A DNA stretch of 64,000 nt from Burkholderia contaminans (lineage in GTDB: Bacteria; Pseudomonadota; Gammaproteobacteria; Burkholderiales; Burkholderiaceae). Positions 1 through 15,388 of the stretch are shown here, piece after piece (positions within the stretch are counted from its first letter, which is position 1; every line of letters begins with the position of its first letter). A program made the translations under genes and the position numbers. The notes under the pieces were generated by a model. It was not told where the DNA came from and made no database searches. It was given only the letters and a program-made list of their open reading frames with translations. The stretch covers positions 1 to 64,000 of the forward strand of contig NZ_CP090641.1 of assembly GCF_029633825.1 (NCBI RefSeq), written 5' to 3'.

Positions 1-84
1 CTTTGGACCTATACCCGTGGAGTACATAGTTTGAGGGCGAAAAGCGTGAAAGCGTTCTGCGGTGGGGTCGCCAAGGACTCTCCG

Positions 85-108
85 TTTCGATGTATGCATA
101 CATCGAAA
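85..108. repeat. Perfect 24-bp palindrome beyond gmtX
   Basis: The left arm TTTCGATGTATG (85-96) is followed without a gap by its exact reverse complement CATACATCGAAA (97-108). A partial copy of the right arm (TACATCG) follows at 109-115. It lies 25 bp past the end of gmtX. There is no loop or T tract, so it is not a usual terminator. A recombinase or regulator binding site fits better, but that is inference. Confidence 0.8.
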
Positions 109-132
109 TACATCGTTTCGGTTATCGGCTGT

Positions 133-794
133 TCAGGCTCCGAGGATCTTTCGTATTGCACGCGCGAAGCCGACATCGAACACTGTCCGACCGTGTTCGT
201 TCACGATCTCGCCATGGCTGCCTTCGTGTAAGCCATGTCTTTCGAGGTAGTCGGCAGAGACCGCCTTCCCCAGCGCTTCACGTTCTGAAGGAGTGAGCTG
301 CGCGTTGTGGCCGTTTGTCGTTGTTGGCAACGCGATGGCGTCTCCTGACGCGCGCACACCGATTGGGCGTCGATCCACGACGACTTGCGCGTTGGATTTC
401 AGAAGGTTGACCTCGGCCCGGAGCTTGTCTCGTTCCCCGATGATTGCTTGCATGATGGAGCGGATCGCGGGGTCGTGAATACGCATGAGGTATTCGTGGC
501 TTGCCAGCGGTTTCGATGGTCGAAGTGTCGGTGGCCCGGCATACGTCGCCCAGGCCGAAATCAGCTCGCGGTAGTCTGCCGATTGCATGTTGTAGAGGAC
601 GCGTCCCTTTAGGACGCCTTCCGCCTCGGCCAGGCGACCAATGGTTGAGAGAGAAAATCGCGCGAGCCTGATTCCTGATGCCTGCGACAAATCTCGTGCA
701 GCGCTTTTAGCCTAGCAAGCCGATGGGCACGACCACCCTTGGCGAGCAGCGTGCCGAGAAGCACGTTCGGGTGGTCGAATGTCGCGCTGTTCAT
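133..794 (-). pseudogene. gmtX: GmtX-like third protein of a gamma-mobile trio, apparently frameshifted
   Basis: The ATG at 794 overlaps the stop of the preceding large integrase as ATGA, so the two are translationally coupled. The first frame reads MNSATFDHPNVLL and continues to ESGSRDF near 660, then runs on out of register. A second frame, from about 657 to the stop at 133, gives SLSTIGRLAEAEGVLKGR and continues to the C terminus. One extra T in the coding-strand run TTTT (plus-strand A's at 654-657) would join them into one protein of about 220 residues reading SGSRDFSLSTIGRL. The gene is therefore broken by one base, is a sequencing error, or uses frameshifting. The central part looks like a helix-turn-helix and a charged helix follows. 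The GMT assignment rests on gene order and general resemblance. The third protein's role is not visible from sequence. Confidence 0.6.
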
Positions 795-3397
795 GCTTGC
801 GACTCGTCGATTCGTTGAGGCTTGCGCTTGAGCATGCCGGTGGCATTGCATTCCGGCAGAAACGTGGCGAAATCAATGCCAAATCGCTCGCTGAGACTCC
901 GGCCGGCGTCCATCAGGTTGATGACCTGCCGCGTTCCCAGCACTGGATTAGCGGGGTTCATCTGCCGCGCGAGACGGCGCATGAATGCGTTGCCAACGCG
1001 GAGTTGTTCTTCTTCGCCCAGCGTCATGAAGACGGGCGCAAGGTGATCGCGATAAAGCACGGCATCGAGCAACTGACTACGACGGAATACTGCCTTGCCT
1101 GCATCGAGATCCGGATAGAGCTCGACATCGTCGCAAACTCCAGCGAGCTGAAGCAATTCCGATTCGGTCTCTTCGAACGCGATGTGCACATCGCTCGCGG
1201 TGCCCACCGCCACTAGTTGAGTAGAGTCTTCGACGGCCCGGTCGAGCGCAGCCTTGCAGCGCTCAATGAGCCGCCAACAAGCGGTGAGATCCTCCGCGAA
1301 GTCGTTAAATCGCTTCATCGATCCTTCCCACACGCGCTCAGCTTGCCGAAAGGCATCGAGATGAAGGAAGACCTCGCCAGCGTCTTCAGCGTCAGCCTTC
1401 TGCTTCTTTAGGTCAAGAAGCACGCGTTCATTCGCGAGGCAAGCATTGCGGGCCTCGTCGAAATGGTAGGCGATCGTGTTGAAGTGCGCGGCGAGCGATG
1501 GAAGGTAGTGAGGCTCCGTCACGAACCAGCGGCATCGAACGCAGTTGCGATTCCCTCCCGGAACGGGAGCGTGCTTTGCGTTGCCAACGGCAGTCCCCGG
1601 CAAAACCATCGGACCTCCGTTGTGGCATCCGCCAATCGAACGATTCTCCATCGAATCGCTGGCGTTTCCTCCAGCGAGGCAAAGGCCGTGGTGCATTGGC
1701 ATCCAGCCCAACGCGTTTCTTGCCGCTGGATGCTCAGGGATTGCATCTGAAACACTGCTCACACTATTGCAGATCGCACTTCGGACAAGTTCGTCGTGTG
1801 CGGTATCGAGCAGAAAGTTCTGAATGCTCGCATTCTTATTTGCATCCAGGCGAGCCTTCGCATCGAGGAGGACGTCGCGAATATGGGTGGCTCCAGGCTT
1901 GGTGTAGTACAAGGTCATGACCAACCGGCTATGACCGACAAGCTTCTGCAGCACAGGGAACGGCACCTGTCCTTCCAAGGCCAGTGCAGTGACAAGGGAG
2001 ACTCGCAAACTGTGAAGTGGGAACAACGTTCTCTTCTTGGACTGGGGCGGCAGCAGCCGAATCGGTGTTCCGTTGTGGTGAGTTTCGGAACGCCCGGCGA
2101 GCCGTGATTCGAATGCCTTCAGCAAATAGAACCAGCACGAATTGAGCGCCTGATCCTGAAGCGGAAAGTTACGCATTCGTGCCGTTGGATATTCTGGCAA
2201 TCGGAAGAGAAAGCACGCGTCAGGATAGCGCGCCAACTGAAAATCAGTCTTGGCAATGATATGTCGACGATCAAGTTCTGCCCATGAGGTCCGACGCGAG
2301 ATGGGGTTGTACTTCTCTTGCCAGTTGCGCAGCTTCTCGATCCAGTAGAAAACATTCTGGTGAAGCGCCCCGCCGTGCGTCCATGGCAGTAAATAGCCCT
2401 TCTCTGGCCCTGACTTAGAGACGTCGGCGGTCTTGTTCGTGTTGATATAGAGGATCGCCAGTGCGTTCTCGTTGTTGTTGCGATCATAGTCGCGCCGGAA
2501 CACACCCTGCTGTAGCGGCCGAGATTCGCTTCCTTCTGCTATCTCGCTGCTGTTTCGCTCCCAACGTCCTGCCGCATAGCGCCAGGTGTCTGCCTCTCCG
2601 GAGTCAAGTACGCGGACCCGGCTAGTTCGTAAGGGCAAGATAAGCTTCACAAGCAGTGCAACCCATCGGACTGGACTCCACATCTGCAACACTTGACCAC
2701 CGCGATAGTTTCGACTCAGCTTACGTATGCGCCAGACGCAATCCGGATCGTCGCGATCAATCTCGTCTTCAGTCACGTCGAGCCAATCAGGCGCGCTCGC
2801 ACCCATATGGCCGATCTTGCTCCCGAGCGCACCATGTGCCCATTGCCAATCGCGAAAATGGGGTCCCGCCGCCAGCATCTGCCGAAGTTGGTCGATGTAG
2901 CCATAAGGCAGTGGTGAATAAACGCTCTCGCCGCGCTTCGGCAACCCCGCTTTCGACATACGACGTACCGGGTTGTGATAGCCCTGCATTAATACGGCGT
3001 TATCGTTTTTACCAATCTGACTGAAATGCCGAAGCAACACAAACTGCAGAAAAGCGTGGATAAGATTGTTCGCGCTGATGCCCCAAGGAGAGTCAGGACA
3101 CGCCGTTCGGTGAAATTCTGGAACCTGTGTCGTTTGCGCCAGGAATACACTCGGGTCCAGCGGCAGGCTCTGCAGAATGAGGTAGCGCTCGAAGAAAGTC
3201 GATAGGGCCTGCAGCCTTTGGTGTAGACCATGCGTTTCCCCACCGAGCCACTCCAAGGCGAAGCCTCTCCAGGCTGCAAGTTCTGGATAGAACTCCACCA
3301 CCCAGGTCAGGGTTGCATCCGAATCGCGTCGCATGCTGCGCTCGGTCCTTGCCGCCTTGCGACGCCCCTTGGGTTTAGTTGGAGAGGTCTTGTACAT
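791..3397 (-). CDS. gmtZ: GmtZ-like large tyrosine-recombinase-family integrase
   Basis: This 868-residue protein is the middle gene of the trio, starting 28 bp after the preceding recombinase gene. Its middle part carries tyrosine-recombinase signatures: HSLRVSLVT, matching the HxLR catalytic motif, then VGHSRLVMTLYY, with the GHS box and the nucleophile tyrosine. The region past the catalytic domain is unusually long, with a cysteine pair (NCVRCRW) and predicted long helices (FDEARNACLANERVLL). Recombinases in this trio act together to move the element. The size and the coupled third gene separate it from ordinary phage integrases. The family name is given from overall architecture; a profile search would settle it. 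Confidence 0.65.
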   Translation of the reverse strand: MYKTSPTKPKGRRKAARTERSMRRDSDATLTWVVEFYPELAAWRGFALEWLGGETHGLHQRLQALSTFFERYLILQSLPLDPSVFLAQTTQVPEFHRTACPDSPWGISANNLIHAFLQFVLLRHFSQIGKNDNAVLMQGYHNPVRRMSKAGLPKRGESVYSPLPYGYIDQLRQMLAAGPHFRDWQWAHGALGSKIGHMGASAPDWLDVTEDEIDRDDPDCVWRIRKLSRNYRGGQVLQMWSPVRWVALLVKLILPLRTSRVRVLDSGEADTWRYAAGRWERNSSEIAEGSESRPLQQGVFRRDYDRNNNENALAILYINTNKTADVSKSGPEKGYLLPWTHGGALHQNVFYWIEKLRNWQEKYNPISRRTSWAELDRRHIIAKTDFQLARYPDACFLFRLPEYPTARMRNFPLQDQALNSCWFYLLKAFESRLAGRSETHHNGTPIRLLPPQSKKRTLFPLHSLRVSLVTALALEGQVPFPVLQKLVGHSRLVMTLYYTKPGATHIRDVLLDAKARLDANKNASIQNFLLDTAHDELVRSAICNSVSSVSDAIPEHPAARNALGWMPMHHGLCLAGGNASDSMENRSIGGCHNGGPMVLPGTAVGNAKHAPVPGGNRNCVRCRWFVTEPHYLPSLAAHFNTIAYHFDEARNACLANERVLLDLKKQKADAEDAGEVFLHLDAFRQAERVWEGSMKRFNDFAEDLTACWRLIERCKAALDRAVEDSTQLVAVGTASDVHIAFEETESELLQLAGVCDDVELYPDLDAGKAVFRRSQLLDAVLYRDHLAPVFMTLGEEEQLRVGNAFMRRLARQMNPANPVLGTRQVINLMDAGRSLSERFGIDFATFLPECNATGMLKRKPQRIDESQA

Positions 3398-3425
3398 GTG
3401 TTTGCTCGGTCACGTGGAGATGTGG

Positions 3426-4808
3426 CTAGTCAGATGAACGGACCAAATCGGACAGAGGCGTCGTAAGAAGTCCATCCAGCCGGTGCGCCGCTTGCTGAAG
3501 TGCTTCTCGGGCTTCGCTAAAGCTTGCTTGTGTGTAGATCTCCTGGCTCTCGATCGATGCGTGATGCATGAAGCGGCGAATCATCGGCTTGTCGATTCCC
3601 GCGTGCTTCAAACGCTGGCCGTAGGCGTGTCGGTGCCCGTGCGGAGTTGTGCCAAGCGCCTTGCCAACTTCGAGGCCAATGCGTTTGCACGCGGCCGCGT
3701 GAGCCTTGTTGTACTGCGTGAGGGTGTATATCGCACCATAGGGTGCGCGCCGCAGGTTCACGAAAGCGAACGGATGATCCCGATCGAAATGCGCAAGCTG
3801 CTTCAGATAGCGATGCCAAAGTTCCAGAAACCACTCGCCGTACTCCGGCACGAACCAGTACGCCTGCTTGTAGTACGGACCGTCGTGCATGCCGCCTTTC
3901 CAGCCAGCATGCCGACGGTCCATCAAATCTGTACGCGGCACAAGGCCGAAGCGCTGGCCGAGGTATTCTGCTCGGTTCGATTTACGTGGTCGTCCTCGCT
4001 CGTCGCACCAGTCAGCAGGCGCGGCCCCGTAGTGCGGATGGTGGATGAGGACCTTGGCTTGACGCGGGTCCTGTGGATCTGGAAATACGTCCTGAACGTA
4101 AAGGTGAAAAGGCTCCGACTCTCGAAATCCCGCGCCATGGAGCAGTAGCGTGATCAAGATGCCACGATAGTCGTAACGATCGCCGTTGCGAAAGCCTTTG
4201 AAGAGCAACGCTTCAAAGTGACGTTCTGGAAAAGCTGGCGGCTCACCTCGCGCGACCTTCGGGATTCTCCGGTAGCGAAGCCAATATCCTGTGGCGCGCG
4301 CGGTGGCATTCGACGCCCACGTATGCCCAAGGAAGGCCTTGCTTCTACGATACTGGTAAGCGGCTTCATCGATCTGTCGATCGAACGTGCTGCCGACGTA
4401 CCGAGGATTGACGCTGGCTGCTTCAGGACGAACTTCGCCCAACCAATTGAAGAAGTCGCTCAAATGGATGATGATGCGTGCCGCGTCGTGCGGCGAGCGA
4501 GGCGGCCAGCAAAGGCCCGTGGCGTCGATTCCTGTTTCGCGATTGAACGTTCCTGTATACAGGCGCTTCGCGAAATTCTGAAACAGTCGATGAGGGTCGC
4601 GTTCGGCGGGGTTGAGTTGGATGTACTCAAGAAAGAGCCGCACCGATCGCGTCACCTTGCGCATCCATTCCAGACTGCGATCGTGGCTTCTATGCAGGAA
4701 ATAATCAATCAGCGGCTCGAGTATCCCCGTCGCGGCGAGCAGGGCGGGGATCTCAGTGTAGACGCCGGTTTCGTCCGTGAGGACCTTTGCTTTGATGCTG
4801 ACGAACAT
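3426..4808 (-). CDS. gmtY: GmtY-like tyrosine recombinase
   Basis: This 460-residue tyrosine recombinase is first in the three-gene set. Catalytic motifs are visible in order: GAGFRESE with the first arginine, HGHRHAYGQ with the HxxR box, MHHAS, then EIYTQ with the nucleophile tyrosine near the C terminus. The N-terminal 150 residues would form the arm or core-binding domain. It is followed at 28 bp by the larger integrase and then the small third gene. That order (recombinase, large integrase, small protein) defines gamma-mobile-trio elements. The gene starts only 84 bp after the end of an arsenic-operon transporter on the same strand, so read-through from that operon is possible. Confidence 0.7.
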   Translation of the reverse strand: MFVSIKAKVLTDETGVYTEIPALLAATGILEPLIDYFLHRSHDRSLEWMRKVTRSVRLFLEYIQLNPAERDPHRLFQNFAKRLYTGTFNRETGIDATGLCWPPRSPHDAARIIIHLSDFFNWLGEVRPEAASVNPRYVGSTFDRQIDEAAYQYRRSKAFLGHTWASNATARATGYWLRYRRIPKVARGEPPAFPERHFEALLFKGFRNGDRYDYRGILITLLLHGAGFRESEPFHLYVQDVFPDPQDPRQAKVLIHHPHYGAAPADWCDERGRPRKSNRAEYLGQRFGLVPRTDLMDRRHAGWKGGMHDGPYYKQAYWFVPEYGEWFLELWHRYLKQLAHFDRDHPFAFVNLRRAPYGAIYTLTQYNKAHAAACKRIGLEVGKALGTTPHGHRHAYGQRLKHAGIDKPMIRRFMHHASIESQEIYTQASFSEAREALQQAAHRLDGLLTTPLSDLVRSSD

Positions 4809-4844
4809 CGCTCGACAGAAAAAGCAAACACTCTACGCACGCTT

Positions 4845-4873
4845 TAAGTCACCACGTTGACCGTTGTAAGTCA
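4845..4873. repeat. Paired TAAGTCA direct repeats upstream of gmtY
   Basis: TAAGTCA occurs at 4845-4851 and again at 4867-4873, 22 bp apart (about two helical turns). The repeats lie in the short gap between the MFS transporter and gmtY. A repeat spaced by helical turns beside a recombinase gene could be a regulator or recombinase binding site, or an element boundary. This is inference from position only. Confidence 0.4.
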
Positions 4874-4892
4874 TCGCTGCTCCCGAATCGAC

Positions 4893-6155
4893 TCACCGAT
4901 AAGAGGGACGTGCCGACGCGCACTTCGCTGCGATAAAAAAGCTGACGGCGGATAGCGCGGAGACAAGCAACACCGTCCATTCGACGGCGACATATCCATC
5001 CGTCAATCCCCAGATGCTGGCCGCTGCGATGGGCGCGATGCCCTTCGCAATGTTCGACGGAAACGACAGCATGCCGCTGATCGCGCCGTAGCCCTCCGTC
5101 CACAGAAACTGCTGGACGATCGTGCCGCGCAGGATCGTCATCATTCCGTTGGCGGCGCCATAGCAGAGCGCGAAGATCCACAAAAGCGCAGCGGATTTGC
5201 CAGCCACAATCAGGACGACCGTCGAGACGGGAAAGAGTGTCACCACGATGAAACCAACTGTCGTGATGGTGACCTTGCGATCGAATGCGAACCAGACCGC
5301 GCGGGCGATGACTTGCGCGGGTCCTATCAGCGCCATGGTGATGTCCAGGACCGTGTTGGTGACGCCGCGCTCGACCATCAACGGGACCAGATGAAATGTG
5401 AGCGCGGCGAAGGTCGCGTAGTAGGTTGTGAAGCACAGTGCGAGCGCCCAGAAGGTAGGCGTGCGCAGTGCACGTCGCGTTGCCGCAGCATCGACCGCCG
5501 TGCGCTCCGCGCTCGGCTGGGCAGCGTTCGGGTCGATTCGTGAGGAGCGGATTGCGAAGACATGAATCGGCAGGCAAATGATTAGATTGCACGCGGCAAG
5601 TGCGACGAGCGCGAGACGCCAACCGGCCAGATCCACGAGGAACTGCGTGACCGGAATGAAAACCGTGCTCGCGAATCCCGCAACGAGCGTCACCAGTGTG
5701 ATCTTGGTCTTGTATCGCAGCGGATAGCGATGCGTGAGCACGGCGAAGAGCGGGTCATAGAAGGTCGCAGCCATCGACAGGCCCAAGCCGATCCACGCTA
5801 CGAAGAGAATCGTGAGCGACGATGTGGCCGACCACATCAGAAGCATGGCGGCCGCGATCAGCGATCCAATGGCCATGATTCGACGTCCGAGCCCGTGGTC
5901 GATCCATTTGCCCACCGGATACGCCACGAAACCCGAGACCAGCAGTCCGAGCGAGAGGGCAGCATTCGTGGACGTGCGGCTCCAGCCCATGGTCTGCTCC
6001 ATGGGTACGACCAGCAGCGAAAACGAATAGTAGACCGAGCCCCACGACACCAGTTGGGCGAGCGCGAGCGCCCAGGTGGCCAGCGATTCGGCGCGATCCG
6101 TCGAGTTACTCGACTTCACTGTCGTCGGTGTCGGCGTTCTGTGCGCTGTGCTCAT
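4893..6155 (-). CDS. MFS transporter, last gene of the arsenic operon
   Basis: This 420-residue major facilitator protein has about twelve hydrophobic segments and the typical cytoplasmic loop [11 protein letters not shown] after the second. Its N-terminal 25 residues are hydrophilic and rich in Thr/Ser. The ATG at 6155 lies inside the end of arsH, so the two genes overlap by 50 bp, suggesting coupled translation. Position in an ars operon points to export of arsenic or an organoarsenical. It is not next to a GAPDH gene, so the ArsJ pathway (arseno-phosphoglycerate export) is unlikely. The substrate is unknown. Confidence 0.75.
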
Positions 6156-6870
6156 GGCTCATGGCTGCATTGGCGAGGACGGAAACTGATGCCGGAGCCT
6201 TCTCTTTACGCTCACTGTACCGGTCGGTCAGGTAATCTGAGCGGTCGCGCACGAGTAGCGTGAACTTATACAGTTCCTCCATCACATCGACCACACGATC
6301 GTAGTACGACGAGGGCTTCATGCGACCGCTCTCATCGAACTCCTGGAACGCCTTGGCTACCGAACTCTGATTGGGAACGGTCACCATGCGCATCCAGCGG
6401 CCGAGCACGCGCAAAGCGTTCACCGCGTTGAAGGATTGCGAGCCGCCCGACACCTGCATGACCGCGAGTGTTCGCCCTTGCGTCGGCCGGATGCTTCCGG
6501 AGTCGAGCGGCAGCCAGTCGATCTGGTTCTTGAACACGCCGGTCAGCGCGCCATGTCGTTCCGGGCTGCACCAAACTTGGCCTTCGGACCAGATGGACGC
6601 TTCGCGCAATTCGAGGACCTTCGGATGGTCGGCGGGCACGCTGTCGGCGAGTGGCAGACCATGTGGATCAAACACTCTGGTCTCGGCGCCTAACTTGCGA
6701 AGGATGCGCTCAGCCTCGAGTGTCAGCAAGCGACTATAGGAGGTCGGACGGAGCGAACCGTAGAGCAGCAAGATGCGCGGCGGATGATCCGAGATCGTCC
6801 GGGGTTCGAGCTTTGTGAGATCGGGCGTGTCGAGATGAGAAAGACTGACGTTCGGAAGATCGGTGGACAT
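6106..6870 (-). CDS. arsH: ArsH NADPH-dependent FMN reductase
   Basis: ArsH flavoproteins oxidise trivalent organoarsenicals to less toxic pentavalent forms in the cytoplasm, using FMN and NADPH. The 254-residue protein shows the FMN phosphate-binding loop [12 protein letters not shown] at about residues 36-47 and the ArsH core motifs [17 protein letters not shown] and [12 protein letters not shown]. The C-terminal 30 residues, after ERKEK, are an acidic tail beyond the usual core, and this tail is where the next gene's start overlaps. It lies 21 bp after the acetyltransferase gene. Identification is firm from sequence motifs and operon context. Confidence 0.93.
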
Positions 6871-6891
6871 CGTATGGAAGCGGCTAAAGAG

Positions 6892-7338
6892 CTACGGGGT
6901 GATGGGGCGTGAGAGCAAAATCGCTGTGGCCGGGCACAGTTCAACGGCCTGGCGCGTGGCGAGGATCGCGGCAGGCGCGGTCTCGCGGCTCACAAGGTTG
7001 AATCCGGTCTTCTCGAAGAAGGCTTGTGCGTCAGTCGTAAGGAGCCACGCAGTTCTGGCGTCCGCGTCGAAGGCCTGACGCAGCAGCACCGCAACGAGAT
7101 TCCGGCCGATGCCCTTGCTTCGACAGCTTGGCTCGACTGTCACCGAGCGGATCAGCACATCGCGCCCGTATTGTTCGAAGCCGCCGTATCCGACGTGCGA
7201 ACCGGCAAGCGTCGTGAACCCGAAAAAGCGGCGCTGCGGTTCGTTGAGGTCATCGACCGGGAGGCCGTCACGGACCAGGGCCTTGACCAGACCGACGTCA
7301 CTTCCGACGGTCTCGTGTGCAATGATTATGGCGCTCAC
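6892..7338 (-). CDS. arsN2: ArsN2-like GNAT acetyltransferase
   Basis: This 148-residue GNAT-fold protein has the acetyl-CoA binding motif SVTVEPSCRSKGIGRNLV at about residues 66-83. Family members in ars operons are annotated ArsN2. The related ArsN1 acetylates the arsenical herbicide phosphinothricin and arsinothricin; the substrate of ArsN2 is less clear. The start is a GTG at 7338 preceded by a strong GAGGAG site that sits on the end of the ACR3 gene, only 9 bp upstream. That spacing puts it firmly in the ars operon. Confidence 0.8.
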   Translation of the reverse strand: MSAIIIAHETVGSDVGLVKALVRDGLPVDDLNEPQRRFFGFTTLAGSHVGYGGFEQYGRDVLIRSVTVEPSCRSKGIGRNLVAVLLRQAFDADARTAWLLTTDAQAFFEKTGFNLVSRETAPAAILATRQAVELCPATAILLSRPITP

Positions 7339-7347
7339 ACTCGCTCC

Positions 7348-8409
7348 TCAGGCCGTCTCGTACCAGCGCTGCGAGCGATTCACGACGCCAACCACCAGCA
7401 GCATGACTGGCACTTCGATCAGTACGCCAACGACTGTCGCCAGCGCCGCGCCAGACTGGAACCCGAAAAAGCTGATGGCGGTAGCAACGGCCAGTTCGAA
7501 GAAGTTGCTCGCGCCGATCAGACTGGACGGACCCGCCACGCAGTGCGCGACCCCGAGCTTGCGGTTCAGCAGATAGGCCAACCCGGAGTTCAGAAACACC
7601 TGAATGAGAATAGGGACTGCGAGCATCGCAATGACCAGCGGCTCCCGGACGATTGCTTGCCCCTGAAACGCGAACAGCAGCAACAGCGTGGCGAGCAGCG
7701 CGCAAATCGAATAAGGCCCGAGGCGGGACACCGTGCGATTGAAGTGGGTCTCACCCTTCGCGAGCAGCACGCGACGCAATAACTGCGCGATGACGACTGG
7801 AATGATGATGTAGAGACCCACCGACGCGATCAGCGTATTCCAGGGAACGGTGATGGCGGACAGGCCAAGCAACAGTGCCACGATCGGCGCGAATGCGACA
7901 ATCATGATCGCGTCGTTCAGCGCCACCTGCGACAAGGTGAAATAGGGATCGCCCTTGCAAAGCTGCGACCAGACGAACACCATCGCCGTGCAGGGGGCGG
8001 CAGCCAGCAGAATGAGGCCGGCAATGTAGCTGTCGAGTTGCGCTGCGGGCAACCAGGCGGCGAAGACGTGGCGCACGAATATCCAGCCCAGTAGCGCCAT
8101 GGAGAAAGGTTTGACGAGCCAGTTCACGAACAGCGTAACGCCGATCCCGCGCCAGTGGCCCTTGACCTGCGCCATCGCGCCGAAGTCGATCTTGATGAGC
8201 ATCGGAATGATCATCACCCAGATCAGCACGCCCACCGGCAGATTGACCTGCGCCAATTCCATGCGACCGATCGCCTGAAAAAGGGACGGCAACCACTGGC
8301 CCAGCGCGATGCCCGCGACGATGCACAGCGCAACCCACACCGTCAGGTATCGCTCGAAGAAGCCAATGACCGGACGGCTCGCGCGAGCGACCGAATCAGT
8401 GCTGCCCAT
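7348..8409 (-). CDS. acr3: ACR3-family arsenite efflux transporter
   Basis: Acr3 carriers export trivalent arsenite across the inner membrane. This 353-residue protein has about ten hydrophobic segments and the signature APCTAMVFVWSQLCKGDP, which holds the conserved cysteine needed for transport. An ATG at 8409 (MGSTDSVARASR) was chosen over one 18 codons upstream because it overlaps the arsC stop by only 14 bp and gives the usual N terminus. It works downstream of ArsC: arsenate is reduced to arsenite, then expelled. Confidence 0.93.
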   Translation of the reverse strand: MGSTDSVARASRPVIGFFERYLTVWVALCIVAGIALGQWLPSLFQAIGRMELAQVNLPVGVLIWVMIIPMLIKIDFGAMAQVKGHWRGIGVTLFVNWLVKPFSMALLGWIFVRHVFAAWLPAAQLDSYIAGLILLAAAPCTAMVFVWSQLCKGDPYFTLSQVALNDAIMIVAFAPIVALLLGLSAITVPWNTLIASVGLYIIIPVVIAQLLRRVLLAKGETHFNRTVSRLGPYSICALLATLLLLFAFQGQAIVREPLVIAMLAVPILIQVFLNSGLAYLLNRKLGVAHCVAGPSSLIGASNFFELAVATAISFFGFQSGAALATVVGVLIEVPVMLLVVGVVNRSQRWYETA

Positions 8410-8916
8410 TGGATTCCTCGGCGGGACGTTCGCCAATCGCGCGCACTTCATTCTGGGCGGCATTGCGATCGAGTACGTGCAACGGCAGGTTCACAAACTG
8501 GCTCACCCGCGTCAGAATCTGCCGATAGACCTTGGTGAAGACCGCGCGCTTCTCTTCGTCGCTGCCCACGAATGCGGCAGGGTCTTCAAAACCCCAGTGC
8601 GCGGTGATCGGCTTACCGGGCCATATCGGGCACACCTCGCCAGCCGCCTGGTCGCACACGGTGATCACGAAGTCCATTTGCGGCGCGTCGGGTGCACCGA
8701 ACTCATCCCAGCTCTTACTGCGCAGCCCGGCCGTGTCGTAGTCCAGCGACTCGCAGCGCTCGATCGCAAACGGATTGACCGCGCCTGACGGGTGACTGCC
8801 TGCGCTGAACGCGTGGAATCGACCCTTGCCTAGCGTGTTAAAAGCGCCTCGGCCATGATGCTTCGGGCACTGTTGCCCGTGCAAAGGACCAGAATGTTGT
8901 AGGTCTTGTCGTTCAC
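8396..8916 (-). pseudogene. arsC: ArsC arsenate reductase, thioredoxin-coupled type, one-base frameshift
   Basis: The gene starts with GTG at 8916, overlapping the arsI stop as GTGA, with GGAG upstream. It reads NDKTYNILVLCTGNSARS, the phosphatase-like P-loop CTGNSAR of thioredoxin-linked arsenate reductases. After MAEALLTR the frame hits a TAG. One extra T in the coding run TTTT (plus-strand A's at 8840-8843) restores ALFNTLGKGRFHAFSAGSHP, which continues to the stop at 8396 through VITVCDQAAGEVCPIWPG, holding the other redox cysteines. The intact product would be about 173 residues. As written, no full-length reductase can be made, so arsenate reduction would be lost unless this is a sequence error or another arsC exists elsewhere. 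Confidence 0.85.
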
Positions 8917-9370
8917 GTCTTGCTCCGATTGAGATCTGCGCCGGCGCAGCAGGCATTTGAAGAAACGCGGGCTTCGCGCGAACGATCGCGCGACTCTCCA
9001 TAAACAGGGGCGTGCTCAAGCGTTTGAAACGTCTCCCATGCGACGCCCTGTGGGTCCACGGTCCAGGTCTTATCCGACTTTGCATAACAGCAGGTCGTCG
9101 CCGTCTGATTCGTGACAGGCAATTCAGCGCTCGCGAAACGCGCTCGCATCTCGGCAAGTTCCTCGTCCGATTCGACCTGAATGCAAGGTGATCAATGCCG
9201 GGCTTTACGCCACGCTGCGAAATAGCGAAGTTGACCTTCGGATCGCTCAACTCCCATTTGCGGTAGTGCGACTTCGATACCGTCGGTTTCGCGCCTCCAA
9301 ACATGGCAACGTAGAACCGGGTGCTCGCATCAATATCTTCGACAGCAACGTGGATGTGCATGCGTTTCAT
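8913..9370 (-). pseudogene. arsI: ArsI/CadI-type vicinal-oxygen-chelate protein (C-As lyase), frameshifted
   Basis: ArsI is a non-haem iron dioxygenase that cleaves the carbon-arsenic bond of trivalent methyl- and aromatic arsenicals. The ATG at 9370 overlaps arsR as ATGA. The N-terminal half is intact (MKRMHIHVAVEDIDAS; PGIDHLAF, histidines as metal ligands). After LAF the frame is lost. One missing C on the coding strand near plus-strand 9179 explains it: adding it gives FQVESDEELAEMRARF and joins to the C-terminal half. That half holds TTCCYAKSDK, the adjacent cysteines that bind arsenic, and GVAWETF, the glutamate ligand. The intact protein would be about 152 residues with a Cys-containing tail. 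Broken as written, or a sequence error. Confidence 0.82.
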
Positions 9371-9699
9371 GATTTAGCTCCTTGGCACTGCGACACAGCT
9401 TGAACGGAACAGTCAGCGCCCGCACAGCAGTTCTCGGTCAGAAACCCGAGCAGTGCGTTCATCGCATCGAAGTTGGCTGAATAGAAGATGAACCGTCCCT
9501 TCTGCTCGCTGTTGACGAGGCCCGCATGCGACAGGTCTTTAAGGTGGAACGACAAGCCAGACGGCGAGAGGCCAAGCTGCTGAGCAATCTCACCAGCCGG
9601 CATGCCTTCGGGGCCCGCGACAACCAGTGCGCGGAAGATCGCCAGGCGCGATTCATGAGCGAGCGCGCCGAGCGCGCGTACAACGAGGTTCGAGTCCAT
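9367..9699 (-). CDS. arsR: ArsR arsenic-responsive repressor
   Basis: This 110-residue winged-helix repressor of the SmtB/ArsR family releases its operator when it binds arsenite. The HTH region is MPAGEIAQQLGLSPSGLSFH and the wing ends at RFIFYSAN. The metal site is probably the C-terminal cysteine cluster ENCCAGADCS, resembling the arrangement of the Acidithiobacillus-type ArsR. The ATG at 9699 was chosen over one 25 codons upstream because the family starts here (MDSNLVVRALGALAHESR). It also sits exactly where transcription should begin from the promoter at 9706-9734, implying a leaderless message. The stop overlaps arsI as ATGA. Confidence 0.92.
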   Translation of the reverse strand: MDSNLVVRALGALAHESRLAIFRALVVAGPEGMPAGEIAQQLGLSPSGLSFHLKDLSHAGLVNSEQKGRFIFYSANFDAMNALLGFLTENCCAGADCSVQAVSQCQGAKS

Positions 9700-9705
9700 G
9701 GCGGC

Positions 9706-9734
9706 ATCATAGACCTGTCGATTCAAAGATTCAA
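9706..9734 (-). promoter_or_regulatory. ars operon sigma-70 promoter
   Basis: On the minus strand, TTGAAT (9734-9729) and TATGAT (9711-9706) are separated by exactly 17 bp. The expected start of transcription, about 7 bp past the -10, falls on the A of the arsR ATG at 9699. No Shine-Dalgarno sequence lies before that ATG. Confidence 0.7.
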
Positions 9735-9745
9735 GTAATCTTGAA
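9730..9745. promoter_or_regulatory. Probable ArsR operator
   Basis: Inverted repeat TTCAAG-TAAT-CTTGAA overlaps the -35 element of the ars promoter. Bound repressor would block RNA polymerase. The shape matches known ArsR operators, which are short AT-rich dyads near arsR. Confidence 0.7.
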
Positions 9746-9857
9746 ACGATGCGGCCACGGTGTTTGATGGTCAATTAGGGACGGTAGATAGCGAGTGGAG
9801 GGAAGAAAGTTGAACCCGCCCTCCAACCCTCAAACTCGAAATCTTGGGCTAGAATAC

Positions 9858-9873
9858 CTGTATATTTATACAG
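9858..9873. promoter_or_regulatory. LexA SOS box
   Basis: CTGTATATTTATACAG is a full CTGT-N8-ACAG LexA site and nearly a perfect palindrome. It lies 18 bp upstream of a GTG start with GGAG, in the intergenic stretch at the edge of the accessory region. Confidence 0.8.
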
Positions 9874-9891
9874 TACTCCTGGAGCCAGATC

Positions 9892-10017
9892 GTGGGTCGG
9901 CCTGTCTTAGCCGCACAGCAGTTACGCACGCCCGAGGAACGGGCGCGCTCCCTCGATGCTGCGCTCGACAGAAATATGTATTCGGAGTCGGGGGGAATAA
10001 CCACCGGAAGGGCGTAA
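9892..10017 (+). CDS. Short SOS-box-linked reading frame, possibly a truncated gene
   Basis: A GTG at 9892 preceded by CTGGAG opens a 41-codon frame (VGRPVLAAQQLRTPEERARS at the start) that ends at TAA 10015-10017. The first 28 residues look like a genuine helical N terminus. After RNMYSESGG the composition turns low-complexity, as if the real gene had been cut and the frame runs into unrelated DNA. The LexA box just upstream suggests that the original gene was DNA-damage inducible. The family is not recognised. Confidence 0.4.
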   Translation: MGRPVLAAQQLRTPEERARSLDAALDRNMYSESGGITTGRA

Positions 10018-10137
10018 CACGAAGGGGGAATAGCGGTCCTGAAATTGGCTTCCTAGACTGCCACGCAATCAATCGGGCCCGAGTATGGGCGTTCAAAAAT
10101 AAGTGGCAAAGGATTGACCCAAGCACAGGAGAACGAA

Positions 10138-11544
10138 ATGGCGATGATGTCGGAATCGACGGGCACGCTGCAAGCGGCGCCTGCAACGGAAGACGCGCCG
10201 CGCGCGCTGTCGCAGACGCTCAGCGTGCGCGATGCGGTGATGATCACCGTATCGGGCGTGACGCCCGCGAGTTCGATCTTCGTGATCGCGCCGTTCGCGA
10301 TCCAGCAGGCCGGTAGCGGCGCCGTGCTGTCGTTCCTGCTCGGCGGCGTACTCGCGCTGGCGTTCGCGCTCTGCTATGCGGAACTCAGCGCCGCGCACCG
10401 CAGCGCGGGCGGCGAATACGTGATGGCCAAGCGCGTGTTCGGCACGCTGCCCGGCTACCTGACCTTCATCACGGTGCTGTCCGTGAGCGTGTTCATCCCG
10501 GCGGTGCTCGCGAGCGGCGCCGCGCCGTACCTGAACAACGCGCTCGGCACGCATTTCGGCAACCAGTCGGTCGCGCTGACGATCGTGCTGCTCAGCTATC
10601 TGCTCGGCATGCTGAACATCAAGACCAACGCGTGGATCACGGGCGCGTTTCTCGTCGTCGAGATCGGCGTGCTGATGCTGATCGCGGGCCTCGGCTTCGG
10701 TTCGCCGCATCGTGGCGCCGACGCGCTGATCGCGCCCGTCGTCGCGAGCAGCAACGCGCTCGTGCCGGCGACCCTCGCCGCGATCGTCCCGGCGATCGGC
10801 ACGGCGATCTTCTGCTACAACGGATTCGGCTCGGCTGCCTATCTCGCCGAAGACCTGCGCGGCGGCAACCGCAACGTCGCGAAGGCGGTGATCTACTCGC
10901 TGCTCGTGATCCTCGTCGTCGAACTGATTCCGCTCACCGCGATCGTGCTCGGCGCGCCGTCGCTCACCGAGCTGACGAAGAGCGCCGACCCGATCGGCTA
11001 TGTGGTGCGTTCGCTGAGCAATCCGGCCGTGTCGCGCGTGGTCAGCGGCGGGATCTTCCTGTCGGTGTTCAACGCGATCATCGCGATCGTGATCACGATG
11101 GGCCGGCTGCTGTACAGCAGCGGCCGGCACGCGCTCTGGTCGCGCACCTGCAACCGCGCCTTCTCGACGATCCATCCGCGCTTCGAATCGCCGTGGCTCG
11201 CCACGATCGCGCTCGCGGTGCCGTCGGCCGGGCTCGTGTTCGTGTCGAGCCTCGACGAGCTGACCGCATTCACGGTCGACCTGCTGCTGCTGATCTATCT
11301 GGTCGTCGGGCTGGCCGCGCTCGCGAGCCGCTTCGTGCGCCGTGACGTCGAGCATCATTACCGGATGCCGTTGTGGCCCGTGACGCCGCTCGTCGCGGTA
11401 GCCGGCGCCGCGTATACGCTCTACACCACGCTCGCAACGGCAACGAAACCCACCGACCTGATCATCATCGCGGGGCTGCTGGTCGCGGCGCTCGTGATGT
11501 ATGCGGTCTGGGCGCGCCACAGCGAAGCCTTCCGCACGCTGTGA
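10138..11544 (+). CDS. APC-superfamily amino-acid permease
   Basis: This 468-residue protein has twelve predicted membrane spans. It follows the amino acid/polyamine/organocation pattern, with the early motif ISVSGVTPASSIF-like stretch at about residues 40-52 and an unwound first helix. It would import an amino acid or related cation across the inner membrane by proton or ion coupling. The ATG at 10138 was chosen because AGGAG lies 7 bp upstream; an ATG 24 bp earlier has no site. It is followed 71 bp later by a P1-family aminopeptidase on the same strand, so the pair may take up and process a small peptide or amide. The substrate is not known. Confidence 0.85.
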   Translation: MAMMSESTGTLQAAPATEDAPRALSQTLSVRDAVMITVSGVTPASSIFVIAPFAIQQAGSGAVLSFLLGGVLALAFALCYAELSAAHRSAGGEYVMAKRVFGTLPGYLTFITVLSVSVFIPAVLASGAAPYLNNALGTHFGNQSVALTIVLLSYLLGMLNIKTNAWITGAFLVVEIGVLMLIAGLGFGSPHRGADALIAPVVASSNALVPATLAAIVPAIGTAIFCYNGFGSAAYLAEDLRGGNRNVAKAVIYSLLVILVVELIPLTAIVLGAPSLTELTKSADPIGYVVRSLSNPAVSRVVSGGIFLSVFNAIIAIVITMGRLLYSSGRHALWSRTCNRAFSTIHPRFESPWLATIALAVPSAGLVFVSSLDELTAFTVDLLLLIYLVVGLAALASRFVRRDVEHHYRMPLWPVTPLVAVAGAAYTLYTTLATATKPTDLIIIAGLLVAALVMYAVWARHSEAFRTL

Positions 11545-11615
11545 GCGGCGGATCGAAACTTGCCGTATCGAAACACTGACACACCGAACCATTGAGAGAC
11601 TGGAGGAATTGCATC

Positions 11616-12725
11616 ATGCGCACGAGGGATCTCGGCATCCGCATCGGACTCGGCACGCCGGGCCGCTTCAACGCGATCACGGACGTTCCGGGCGTGCGGG
11701 TCGGACATTGCACGCTGAACGTCGAGAACGGCGATGCATCGATCCGCACCGGCGTCACCGTCATCGAGCCGCGCGCGGGCGCAGCGCACGATTCGCCGTG
11801 CTTCGCGGGCGTGCACGTGCTGAACGGCAACGGCGACGCAACGGGGCTCGAATGGATCCGCGAGGCCGGCCTGCTGACCACGCCGATCGCCTATACGAAC
11901 ACGCACAGCGTCGGCGCGGTGCGCGATGCGCTCGTCGCGAACGAGCGCGAAGCGGCGGCCGGCCGCGTGTACTGGTGCATGCCGGTCGTGATGGAAACCT
12001 ACGACGGCTTGCTGAACGACATCTGGGGGCAGCACGTGAGCGCCGCGCACGTGCTGCGCGCGCTGGCCGCCGCGCAGTCGGGGCCGGTCGCCGAAGGCGG
12101 CGTGGGCGGCGGCACGGGGATGATCTGCCACGAGTTCAAGGGCGGCATCGGCACCGCGTCGCGCGTGCTCGCGGCCGATGCGGGCGGCTGGACCGTCGGC
12201 GCGCTCGTGCAGGCGAACTACGGCGTGCGCGAGATGCTGCGCGTGGCCGGCTACCCGGTCGGCGAAGTGCTGCGGCACGTGCCGTCGCCGTTCCGCGCGC
12301 CGGACGCGCAAGGCGAGGCAGGGATGGGGTCGATCGTCGTGACGATCGCGACCGACGCGCCGCTGCTGCCGCACCAGTGCACGCGTCTTGCACAGCGCGC
12401 GAGCGTCGGGCTGGCGCGGGCCGGCGGCGGTACGGAGGATTCGAGCGGCGACATCTTCCTGGCGTTCGCAACGGGCAACGACGGCCTGCCGGCGGCGAAC
12501 TACGGCAGCAAGGGCGCACCGACCACCGGCGTGAAGATGGTCAACAACGACCATATTTCCGCGCTGTTCGTCGCAGCGGCGGAAGCGGTGGAGGAAGCGA
12601 TCGTGAATGCGCTCGTCGCGGGCGGCGACGTCGAGTCGCGCGGGGCGCGGGTCGAAGGGCTGGGGCAGGCGCGCTTGCTGGATGCGTTGCGCGAGGTGGG
12701 CTGGCGGCCGGGGCGCGGCGCCTGA
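11616..12725 (+). CDS. P1-family (DmpA-like) aminopeptidase/amidase
   Basis: P1 peptidases are Ntn-type hydrolases made as one chain that cleaves itself into two subunits, exposing an N-terminal serine. The protein is 369 residues, normal for the family. It begins RIGLGTPGRFNAITDVPGVR, the standard P1 opening, and has the glycine-rich GGVGGGTGMICHEFKGG. The probable self-cleavage region is GGGTEDSSGDIFLAF at about residues 270-284, where a serine becomes the nucleophile. Family members release N-terminal residues, including D-alanine and beta-amino acids, from small peptides or amides. GGAGGA sits 8 bp upstream of the ATG. Probably in an operon with the permease upstream. Confidence 0.88.
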   Translation: MRTRDLGIRIGLGTPGRFNAITDVPGVRVGHCTLNVENGDASIRTGVTVIEPRAGAAHDSPCFAGVHVLNGNGDATGLEWIREAGLLTTPIAYTNTHSVGAVRDALVANEREAAAGRVYWCMPVVMETYDGLLNDIWGQHVSAAHVLRALAAAQSGPVAEGGVGGGTGMICHEFKGGIGTASRVLAADAGGWTVGALVQANYGVREMLRVAGYPVGEVLRHVPSPFRAPDAQGEAGMGSIVVTIATDAPLLPHQCTRLAQRASVGLARAGGGTEDSSGDIFLAFATGNDGLPAANYGSKGAPTTGVKMVNNDHISALFVAAAEAVEEAIVNALVAGGDVESRGARVEGLGQARLLDALREVGWRPGRGA

Positions 12726-12854
12726 AACGGCATGCGCCGCTTCAATCGAAGCGGCGTGGGGTAGCGTGGCGATGCCGCGATCGGCCGGGCCGCCGCTCGC
12801 CCGCGCATGCAACGCGGGCGGCGCGGGCCTGGCCGTGACGACGCGGCGTCATGC

Positions 12855-13067
12855 TCAGCTGCCGAAGTAGATGTTGCAGAAGCTGACGGGGCCGACACAT
12901 GCGTTCGGGTCTTCCTGCTTCGATTGCGAACGATCGACGCGGCCTGCGGCCTTCACGGCTTCAGCGCGGTTCGCCGGTTGCTGTGCGGCGTCTGCCGGCG
13001 CCGGCTGTGCGTGAGCAACGGCAGCGGTGAGCGACAGGGCAACGAGGGCGAGGTGCAGCGGCTTCAT
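12855..13067 (-). CDS. Small exported protein, unknown function
   Basis: This 70-residue protein has a clear signal peptide (MKPLHLALVALSLTAAVAHA) and a predicted mature part of about 50 residues. The mature part is Ala/Gln-rich, with two cysteines at the C terminus (NACVGPVSFCNIYFGS) that could form a disulfide. The ATG at 13067 has GGAG upstream and gives the signal peptide directly, so the longer frame is not used. It stands alone between a peptidase gene and a FUSC gene. No family is recognised. Confidence 0.7.
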   Translation of the reverse strand: MKPLHLALVALSLTAAVAHAQPAPADAAQQPANRAEAVKAAGRVDRSQSKQEDPNACVGPVSFCNIYFGS

Positions 13068-13204
13068 TTTGGTTTCTCCGGGGTGAGTGCCAGTCTCGCT
13101 GGCAGTGAGGAAACTATAGGCTCGCACTGCTTAAAGATTAATCACCGCGGCTGTAGAGCTTATTTCCATCCGGAACAAGGATCTCGTTGCGCGCGCACCG
13201 ATCG

Positions 13205-15388
13205 TCAATGGCGGTGCCGGTTGAACGGTGCGTCCTTGTCCAGCAGCGCGCTGCGCATGAAGTGCAGGCAGCCGACGATCCGCTGCATCCGGTGCCGCTC
13301 GTCGGGCACCGCATACCACGCCTGCAGCGTGTGCTGCGCCGCGCGGATCGCCAGGTTCACCGATTTCAGCGTGCGCGCGTGGTGGCCGGGCGTCGGATCG
13401 TCGAAGAAGCGCGGCAGCTCGTGCAGCACCGCGTCGATCGAACCGGTCCAGCGCAGCGTTTGCGGCGGCTTCGATTCGCAGAACGCGTTCAGCTCGTCGC
13501 GCAGGTCGATCACCGCATGGCCGACCTCGAGCGTCGACAGCATCCAGCGCAGCGCGTCGCGATGCTGTCGCGTGCGCCGCACGAGCAGTGTGCGCAGTTG
13601 CGCCATCAGGTCGTGCGTGCTCGACTGGAAGCGCTGCGCGAGGCGCTCCGTCGGTCCTTCGCACGCCAGCGTGACCTGGCGGCGCAGGTCGTGCGCGATG
13701 CGGCCCGTGAGCCACGGCATGTGGGTGGGGAACACGACCGCGAACACGAGCGAGCACGCGAGCATCGCGATGACGATCGCCAGGCCGTTGTTGATCAGCA
13801 CCTCGGGCGTATACGCGATCGCGTTGTCGGGCCCCGCGAGCAGGCAGAAGAACACCGCGAAGCCGATCCCGTAGCCGGACAAGCCCGGCCGCATCGCGAG
13901 AAACGCGCCGAGGCCGAGCACCGGCGCGAGCGCGGCACACAGCAGCGGGAAGCCCTCGATGTTCGGATACACGTAGCACAGGAACACGTAGCCGACCGCG
14001 GTCGCGAACGCCGCGCCGACGCTCATCTGTGCGACGAACTTCGGTGCGCGCGGCGACGTGGAGCTGAGCGCGCACGCGATCGCGGTGGCGATCACGGCGA
14101 GCGGGCCGCTCGGCCATTCGGACGCAATCCAGAACGCGCTCATCGCGCCGACGGCGACGATCGTGCGCAGGAACGCGAAGCCGACGAAGAACGAATTGGT
14201 CTTCACCGCGTAGTGCGTGACCGAGCGCTCGAACGCGTGATCGTCCTGGTCGAGCGACGCATAGGTGTCGGCGTAGCCGAGATATTCGCCGATGAAGCGG
14301 TACAGCAGCTCGATCGCGGTATCGAAGTCGAGCAGGCCGCCGGCCGCATGGGCTTCGATGTCGCGCCGCGATGCGCGCGCGGCTTTCGGCAACGCGCTGT
14401 GGAAGCGACGCAGCTCGAGCAGTGCGCCGGTGGCCGGTGAGACGCCGCGCTGCCGCTCGTCGCGCAGTGCGGCGAAGCGCTGCGCGAGCGCGTCGATGTG
14501 CGGCGCCAGTGCATCGAGGACCGCGTCCGAGCCATTGGCGCGCAGCCGCTTGACGAGCTGGTGCAGCGCATGCAGCCGCGTGCACGCGTTCATGAACTCG
14601 CTGTTCAACCGCGCGAGGCGGCGGCTGCGCGCGCGAATGTGCGGATCCTCGAACGACGCGAACGCGCGGTTGGCCTCGAAGCCAACGATGTCGTCGACGA
14701 AATCGGCGAAGCGCCGCTCGAAATCGCCGCGCGCGACGTCGCCCGCGAGCGCGCCGGCCGTGAACGCCGCGAACGTCGCATGGCGGGTGCCCAGCGAACG
14801 CATCAGCGCCTTCGCGGAGCTGAGCGGCAGGATCAGCGCGCTGACCGCGCCCGAGCACGCGATGCCGAGCGCGACTTCCGCGGCGCGCGTGAGCGCGGAC
14901 TGGAACAGCGTCTGCGGGGTCATCACGGCCGGCAGGCCGATCAGCGCGGCCGTGTAGCCGGCGAGCACGAAGCCGTACCAGCGGAAGTGGCGGTTGCGCA
15001 CCGCGAGCGCGATGCAGGTGCCGATCCACAGCGTGATGCCGGCCATGTACAGCTCGGGCTGCTGCGCGAACAGCCCGCCGAGCGCGAGCGCGGCGACGAG
15101 GCCGGCCGCCGTGCCGAGCACGCGGTAGAAACTCTTCGCGAACACCATCCCCGACAGCGGCTGCATCAGCACGAACACGGTCGTCATCGCCGTGCGCGGC
15201 TGCGACATCTCCAGGCGCATCGCGATGCCCATCGCGAGGAGCGCCGCGAACACGGTTTTCGCGAGGTGCAGCCAGATCAGCCCGTCGCTCGCGGCCCAGT
15301 CGCGCGCCGCGTCGCCGAGTGGATCGAGCCAGGTTCTCCATCGTGCCGGTTCGATGGAAGGAGGCTCGATCGCAGGTTGTGGCTTCAT
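13205..15388 (-). CDS. FUSC-family inner-membrane efflux protein
   Basis: This 727-residue protein has two blocks of hydrophobic spans (about residues 35-165 and 375-500), each followed by a long cytoplasmic region. That is the fusaric-acid resistance/AaeB layout. Typical partners are a periplasmic adaptor and a small DUF1656 protein, neither of which is adjacent here, so it may act alone or with distant partners. It is transcribed away from a LysR regulator across a 200-bp gap, which suggests that the regulator controls it. Known members export aromatic acids or fusaric acid; the substrate here is unknown. Confidence 0.85.
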   Translation of the reverse strand: MKPQPAIEPPSIEPARWRTWLDPLGDAARDWAASDGLIWLHLAKTVFAALLAMGIAMRLEMSQPRTAMTTVFVLMQPLSGMVFAKSFYRVLGTAAGLVAALALGGLFAQQPELYMAGITLWIGTCIALAVRNRHFRWYGFVLAGYTAALIGLPAVMTPQTLFQSALTRAAEVALGIACSGAVSALILPLSSAKALMRSLGTRHATFAAFTAGALAGDVARGDFERRFADFVDDIVGFEANRAFASFEDPHIRARSRRLARLNSEFMNACTRLHALHQLVKRLRANGSDAVLDALAPHIDALAQRFAALRDERQRGVSPATGALLELRRFHSALPKAARASRRDIEAHAAGGLLDFDTAIELLYRFIGEYLGYADTYASLDQDDHAFERSVTHYAVKTNSFFVGFAFLRTIVAVGAMSAFWIASEWPSGPLAVIATAIACALSSTSPRAPKFVAQMSVGAAFATAVGYVFLCYVYPNIEGFPLLCAALAPVLGLGAFLAMRPGLSGYGIGFAVFFCLLAGPDNAIAYTPEVLINNGLAIVIAMLACSLVFAVVFPTHMPWLTGRIAHDLRRQVTLACEGPTERLAQRFQSSTHDLMAQLRTLLVRRTRQHRDALRWMLSTLEVGHAVIDLRDELNAFCESKPPQTLRWTGSIDAVLHELPRFFDDPTPGHHARTLKSVNLAIRAAQHTLQAWYAVPDERHRMQRIVGCLHFMRSALLDKDAPFNRHRH

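Follow-up and report, generated by a model that had tools for sequence, protein, structure and literature searches.

Where does a mobile element begin and end when its recombinase genes adjoin a resistance operon, and does the operon belong to it? The question is raised by the left end of a 64,000-nucleotide stretch of Burkholderia contaminans DNA (contig NZ_CP090641.1; the whole stretch is referred to as the window), where three co-directional minus-strand genes lie beside an arsenic resistance (ars) operon. The first-pass annotation, made from the letters alone, had recognised in the three genes the layout of a gamma-mobile-trio (GMT) module. Profile searches agreed: GmtX, GmtZ and GmtY all scored above their NCBIfam cut-offs, and the order gmtY-gmtZ-gmtX on one strand is that of GMT islands. 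Window 7-10000 is one complete, self-contained GMT element with arsenic resistance as its cargo, in the order left end, gmtX, gmtZ, gmtY, ars operon, LexA box, 5' imuA module and right end.

Copies and borders of the element

The genome (9.44 Mb, 7 contigs) encodes GmtZ in four copies with 100% listed identity, and the DNA of window 1-9900 was recovered at full length at four places, on contigs C2, C4, C1 and C6. The window copy, on C2, is called W, and the others are named after their contigs. In compared stretches of 20-40 kb, the four copies share only window 1-10001, about 10.0 kb at 99.8-99.9% identity. Their ends have the same layout: on the gmtX side 8 bp are followed by ACCTATACCC, and on the gmtY side GGGGGGAATAA is followed by 8 bp. 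C6 is a 162.8-kb replicon and C1 a 3.8-Mb contig, each with its copy in imuA, while the C4 copy truncates an RNase III-like gene on a 391-kb replicon (L007 17550-17981; TIGR02191, 146 bits, below the cut-off). The insertion seen in C4 is also present in a B. contaminans plasmid, the ars-gmt block was found in other species as well, and two B. contaminans plasmids hold this element at two of the sites occupied in the source genome, in keeping with the earlier assignment of the DNA to a Burkholderia-type host.

Most differences between the copies lie in CCAGG motifs, homopolymer runs or a single short palindrome of gmtY (window 4550-4561 and other points), and appear mainly to resemble long-read errors. 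Some gmt and ars reading frames differ between copies; intact copies exist.

To define the insertion site of W, 61 genomes were searched and the empty site was read in five, each of which gave CATACCA-CCACCGGA-AGGG. Comparison with relatives lacking the island, as the first-pass annotation had proposed, thus mapped both ends exactly. Contig C2 begins at window base 1, and we infer that its opposite end supplies the left flank of W, C6 likewise closing on itself; the two W flanks are contiguous in relatives, which bears out the closure of C2. An ordinary prophage or an integrative and conjugative element (ICE), which the first-pass annotation had named as a reading that would count against it, was rejected, as all nine scanned proteins between the borders are products of gmt or ars genes.

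Junction bases and the route of movement

The two junctions of a copy carry different 8-mers. W has CCACCGGA, native to its site, on the gmtY side and the foreign CCCTTTGG on the gmtX side, and the latter is identical to the gmtY-side 8 bp of C6. The gmtY-side 8 bp of C6 are CCCTTTGG and its gmtX-side 8 bp CGCTGTGG; the latter, foreign to the site, equal the target 8 bp of C1, where CGCTGTGG lies on the gmtY side and CGCTTTGG on the gmtX side. Five plasmid imuA homologs read at the C6 site contained CCCTTTGG (2/5), CCCTCTGG (2/5) or GTTTATGG (1/5), and CGCTGTGG in none (0/5); among seven relatives read for C1, CGCTGTGG was found in four, including the two nearest at 97%. The junction 8-mers of C4 are CACTTTGG and CGCTTTGG. 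The variable region is taken as 8 bp because its first base varies (C, A or G) behind the constant GGGGGGAATAA. A target-site duplication was considered and rejected, since the junctions carry two distinct 8-mers, of which just one occurs in the empty site.

Judged from these comparisons, the gmtY side retains the bases of the target in W and C6, and probably also in C1. The foreign 8-mers fit a chain of transfers from C1 to C6 to W, because C6 carries the target bases of C1 and W those of C6; the first step is weaker than the second because CGCTGTGG is common in imuA.

The same polarity is described for strand-biased circularizing integrative elements (SEs), in which target bases lie at the recombinase-proximal end and a 6-bp footprint of the donor flank at the other, and a 6-bp donor-flank footprint is likewise given for Tn554 in the available part of that report (PMC10214605). 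The footprint here is 8 bp, not 6 bp. Compared by these descriptions, SEs differ further in having four core genes, intA-tfp-intB-srap, against three here; there is no room for a tfp-like gene between gmtY, gmtZ and gmtX. Tn554, again by description, resembles the element in its two tyrosine recombinases with a small third protein, its site specificity and its donor-flank footprint (PMC10214605, as far as the available text goes). It differs in its Staphylococcus and Enterococcus hosts and in a footprint of 6 bp against 8 bp. The target of Tn554 is radC.

In the mechanism that we propose, GmtY and GmtZ, helped by GmtX, would copy the element into a circle together with the 8 bp that adjoin the donor gmtY-side end. 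On insertion of this circle, those donor 8 bp would come to lie at the gmtX side, and the gmtY side would keep the 8 bp native to the target. Such a copy-out/copy-in route, proposed for SEs and suggested for Tn554, fits because the inferred donors remain. Cut-out/paste-in movement with heteroduplex coupling sequences, as in Tn916, would by our reasoning also give one junction with donor bases and one with target bases, but all insertions that could be tested (W, C6 and probably C1) share one polarity and the inferred donors have not been lost, and we regard this second route as unlikely, at perhaps a quarter of the weight of belief.

imuA as target and the right-end module

Insertions in imuA at its HPxLW codons were found in C1, C6, two P. 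fungorum plasmids, B. glumae plasmids, Caballeronia zhejiangensis and Paraburkholderia sejongensis, and the insertion point lies 14 codons from the imuA start codon where a stub was read. In Paraburkholderia domus an imuA stub stands at the gmtX-side element end. A scan of all 80 GMT loci surveyed in this work detected an imuA stub at an element end in three, all close relatives. In a GmtZ tree of 46 rows, from which rows below 40% identity, three named loci and short translations had been excluded, the imuA-targeting rows form one clade of 5, whose sister, P. lacunae, is without a recognised end. The target is widespread: at E <= 1e-100 the imuA body was matched in 59 of the 61 genomes of the genus searched, and a 1-kb imuA/imuB query matched 175 records of a plasmid collection, with at least 80% of its length covered in 129. 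imuA is the preferred target of this element lineage; W and C4 are off-target insertions, in which the right-end module has no imuA to serve.

This module consists of a LexA (SOS) box and a substitute imuA 5' coding end, whose GTG start lies 18 bp after the box. In imuA insertions its frame runs into the gene as ...MYSESGGIT-LWRGSQLARG.... The box is identical in the module loci of six relatives (three mismatches were allowed in the search). Searched by DNA alone, the module was found in 6 of 398 family genomes, and all 6/6 loci outside the source genome are fused to imuA; it was also found in 37 plasmid records, of which 33 have imuA annotated there and 32 are B. glumae, mostly near-identical plasmids. 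Thirteen imuA-associated copies were compared (C1, C6, G387, two from C. zhejiangensis, P. sejongensis, G004, G051, B. glumae, Paraburkholderia sp. D15, two from P. fungorum and one from B. contaminans), located by the constant GGGGGGAATAA, from which one P. fungorum copy deviates. In 12 of the 13 the module frame is maintained across the junction and into imuA, and in 10 the fused open reading frame (ORF) is open to the normal ImuA end (255-262 codons). In W and C4, outside imuA, it stops after 41 and 68 codons.

The module is 109 nt long in all nine sequences compared, at 70-76% overall identity. The ratio of non-synonymous to synonymous differences (pN/pS), pooled over 15 non-independent pairs of six sequences, was 0.52 for the reading frame of the module, against 1.55 and 1.32 for the two alternative frames. 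The NCBIfam ImuA profile starts at residue 38 of the P. fungorum fusion and at residue 15 of native ImuA; because it begins at residue 38 of the fusion, the conserved ImuA domain is uncut. No CTGT-N8-ACAG box was found between the gmtY-side end and gmtY in the 27 other GMT loci with a located end (locus L066, of the imuA clade, was left out of this count). A promoter scan of 9700-10120 gave no plus-strand sigma-70-like site, so the predicted promoter activity of the module rests on the LexA box and its position.

We propose that the HPxLW codons at the imuA start are the preferred landing site of the lineage, and that insertion there would sever imuA from its SOS promoter and start codon. The right end would then provide a new start codon downstream of a LexA box, together with 37 in-frame codons, by which the imuA-imuB-dnaE2 mutagenesis cassette would stay expressed under SOS control.

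Decayed copies bear on this proposal. In genome G051 the chromosomal imuA uses the module, beyond which lie ArsR, ArsI/ArsC-like and ACR3 genes and then the gmtX-side end, joined to the old imuA stub; the old SOS box is degenerate and the module box perfect, and no gmt gene match was found within 15.7 kb. In genome G004 the module alone is left and imuA still reads from it; within 14.8 kb neither gmt nor ars genes were matched, and a gmtX-side end is missing. These loci suggest retention of the module by hosts in which the element itself had decayed; alternatively, the imuA 5' end of G004 may be ancestral and have been captured later by the element. In Paraburkholderia sp. D15 (L157, about 7452-14158), the module lies near a gmtX fragment and a chromate efflux transporter gene, which suggests that the cargo of the imuA-targeting lineage varies.

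Taken as a whole, the reading of the locus as a complete GMT element that has an 8-bp footprint fitting copy-out/copy-in movement, prefers imuA and has a right end that spares its target gene is given a probability of roughly 0.8. Several observations weigh against it. The native 8 bp of C1 are uncertain, since CGCTTTGG occurs in one of the seven relatives and other 8-mers in two. For C4 no empty site was found, as no flank homologue was present in 64 other genus genomes or in phages, and plasmid records at this flank showed only the same insertion. No independent tree of the four copies was drawn to check the order C1 to C6 to W, their differences being of the kind expected from long-read errors. 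The support of the imuA clade, 94/82, is just below the tool's star. Two fused frames end abnormally, at 279 codons in C1 and 343 in B. contaminans; in P. fungorum, one copy loses the frame at the junction and stops at 34, with its sister strain in frame. Finally, two of the four copies in the source genome (W and C4) are outside imuA, and the pairwise pN/pS of W against four of eight partners is 0.98-1.37.

The last two points are also what would be expected if the LexA box and ORF were a captured imuA relic without function for element or host. Against such a relic stand the perfect box, the fixed length of the module despite its sequence divergence, the pooled in-frame constraint, the retention of the module after gmt loss in G051 and G004, and the absence of the box from the other GMT ends, and we consider a functionless relic improbable. 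We lean, with somewhat less assurance than for the element itself, towards the fuller account: GMT elements would move like Tn554 and SEs by copying, with an 8-bp footprint; one lineage would have specialised on imuA, bearing a prosthetic SOS promoter and N-terminus that hold the imuA-imuB-dnaE2 cassette under damage control; and at least two Burkholderia genomes would have kept this prosthesis as their own imuA 5' end after loss of the recombinases.

Other GMT loci, related elements and gene content

Of the surveyed loci, 61 were tabulated for end and LexA-box counts, and the gmtY-side end motif was sought only 1.4-4.5 kb upstream of the gmtZ match. It was located in 28 of the 61 (one of them L066), with none in range for the other 33. 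Outside the imuA clade, the end lies within 2.7 kb of the gmtZ match in 24/27 loci, with gmtY adjoining the border. In the source element, 5.2 kb of ars genes and the module stand between gmtY and this border, and gmtX adjoins the other. The cargo side is reversed, being the gmtY side and not beyond gmtX. In GMT islands, which Mahata et al. 2024 reportedly described, cargo typically lies beyond gmtX, a feature not taken here as defining. The element differs from GMT islands in this placement of its cargo between gmtY and the gmtY-side end, and also in its arsenic cargo, imuA target, SOS/5'-imuA module and betaproteobacterial host. The expectation of a GMT element in a Burkholderia-type host held, whereas confinement to gammaproteobacteria did not, as the 80 loci include many Betaproteobacteria.

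Spread of the copies by homologous recombination, an insertion sequence (IS) or a Tn3 element instead of GmtYZX could be argued from a Tn3 transposase about 4 kb from the B. contaminans plasmid copy, but the exact borders at unrelated sites, the 8-bp rule and the lack of shared sequence outside the borders in the compared stretches make it highly improbable. An ordinary GMT island with its main cargo left of the window and ars as a mere neighbour, which the first-pass annotation had suspected and which the 24/27 loci (in the range searched) would favour by placing cargo on the gmtX side, is refuted, with hardly any probability left to it, by an empty site that joins exactly these borders and by four copies of an ars-gmt block that recurs in other species, shares nothing beyond window 1-10001 and ends at base 7 on the gmtX side with its cargo on the gmtY side.

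At the gmtY-side borders of betaproteobacterial and Pseudomonas GMT elements (L041, L046, L055, L057, L059, L071 and others), a G/C-rich stretch followed by T-runs, resembling an intrinsic terminator, was often seen. With patterns of our own choosing, a loose form matched 9/28 borders against 6.0% of random positions and a strict form 5/28 against 0.7%; terminator hairpins may be the target of those elements.

A separate observation concerns a Vibrio owensii GMT locus (L088; GmtZ 36% identical), where an imuA-like gene lies on the opposite strand near gmtY, at about 7775-8600. It is intact at its start and has its own LexA-like box, and may reflect chance or a second link between GMT and imuA.

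Several GMT islands in one genome have a precedent in a Vibrio isolate with four, two of them identical, according to the available part of the report (PMC12039261). Replacement of the 5' end of a target gene by the element is described for IMEVchUSA3 in dusA and the ICE SXT in prfC (PMC8409611, available text), and here too an in-frame N-terminus is supplied at the junction. Those elements differ in being mobilizable or conjugative and in targeting genes other than mutagenesis genes, and no SOS box is described for them in the available part of that source (PMC8409611). A literature search found no paper joining imuA with a tyrosine recombinase, and among papers on imuA, genomic islands and insertion, judged by title or the start of the abstract, none was about an element in imuA. 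The element is a GMT variant with a reversed cargo side, imuA specificity and a target-gene-sparing end, and, as far as the literature searched goes, may be new.

Defined ends, an attachment (att) site and an 8-bp junction rule make the mechanism of this GMT lineage testable, and link GMT elements to the Tn554/SE class of movement. The element lands in a DNA-damage mutagenesis gene yet is seemingly built to keep it SOS-regulated. Plasmid imuABC cassettes have reportedly been linked to transient hypermutation (PMC4151985). If the present reading is true, imuA, common on chromosomes and plasmids alike, is the target of a specialised GMT lineage, and this choice could favour spread, given the plasmid records that match the imuA/imuB query.

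Table 1. Features of the element and its junctions in the window (scores in bits against family cut-offs).
Feature	Position	Strand	Remarks
Last 6 of the 8 bp at the gmtX-side junction, CCCTTTGG	1..6		Bases 1-2 of the 8 bp stand at the end of contig C2
gmtX-side element end, ACCTATACCCGTGG...	7..40		Same in compared copies, near-identical in close relatives
gmtX	133..690	-	NF040692, 192.5 vs 40; 185 aa in the window
gmtZ, large tyrosine recombinase	791..3397	-	NF047926, 980.7 vs 600; PF13009; 868 aa
gmtY, tyrosine recombinase	3426..4808	-	NF040693, 542.2 vs 340; HxxR..H..Y from residue 390; 460 aa
Major facilitator superfamily (MFS) transporter, ArsK-like	4893..6155	-	Below ArsK cut-off, 208.5 of 400
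arsH	6106..6870	-	TIGR02690, 406.7 vs 292.25
arsN2	6892..7338	-	NF040501, 148.3 vs 125
ACR3 arsenite efflux transporter	7348..8463	-	TIGR00832, 382.4 vs 282.8
Frame with ArsI-like N-terminal piece and ArsC-like piece	8396..9370	-	Both below cut-off
arsR	9367..9699	-	NF033788, 71.5 vs 55; 135-aa ORF, open to 9774
LexA (SOS) box CTGTATATTTATACAG	9858-9873	+	0.00 expected by chance (shuffles)
Substitute imuA 5' coding end	9892..10001	+	GTG start at 9892; 36 full codons and two bases of the 37th, completed by the target
gmtY-side element end, GGGGGGAATAA	9990..10000		Comparison of copies
Native target 8 bp CCACCGGA, kept at the gmtY-side junction	10001..10008		Identical in the empty site, 5/5 relatives read

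Among the genes of the element (Table 1), GmtZ matches PF13009 in Pfam with a sub-threshold phage-integrase match, and GmtY has a phage-integrase domain. A scan for the HxxR..H..Y pattern detected it in GmtY and did not find it in GmtZ; GmtZ residues H462, R465, H489 and Y497/Y498 are invariant in 13 aligned sequences and are, by our by-eye reading, the putative catalytic residues. Annotated lengths vary between copies: GmtX is 663 bp (220 aa) in other copies, arsR is 110 aa there, and a separate 173-aa ArsC is annotated where the window has the combined ArsI/ArsC-like frame. A GmtZ match above the cut-off occurred only in the source genome among 101 genomes searched (source included), with weaker matches in six others.

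The ars operon ends at 4893, leaving the 84-bp gap to gmtY already recorded in the first-pass annotation. No promoter or terminator was detected within this gap; one terminator-like site lies inside the transporter gene (4989-4971), and a promoter-like site lies upstream of arsR (9734-9706). Because no terminator was detected in the gap, the ars promoter could read into the gmt genes, and co-transcription of ars and gmt is possible. The guanine-cytosine content of window 1-10001 is 58.8%, against 67.1% for the remainder. Two further ars clusters were found in the genome (C2:2103093-2105608 and C5:47844-53097; ACR3 DNA 74-75% identical), so the ars genes of the element are not the only ones that it holds.

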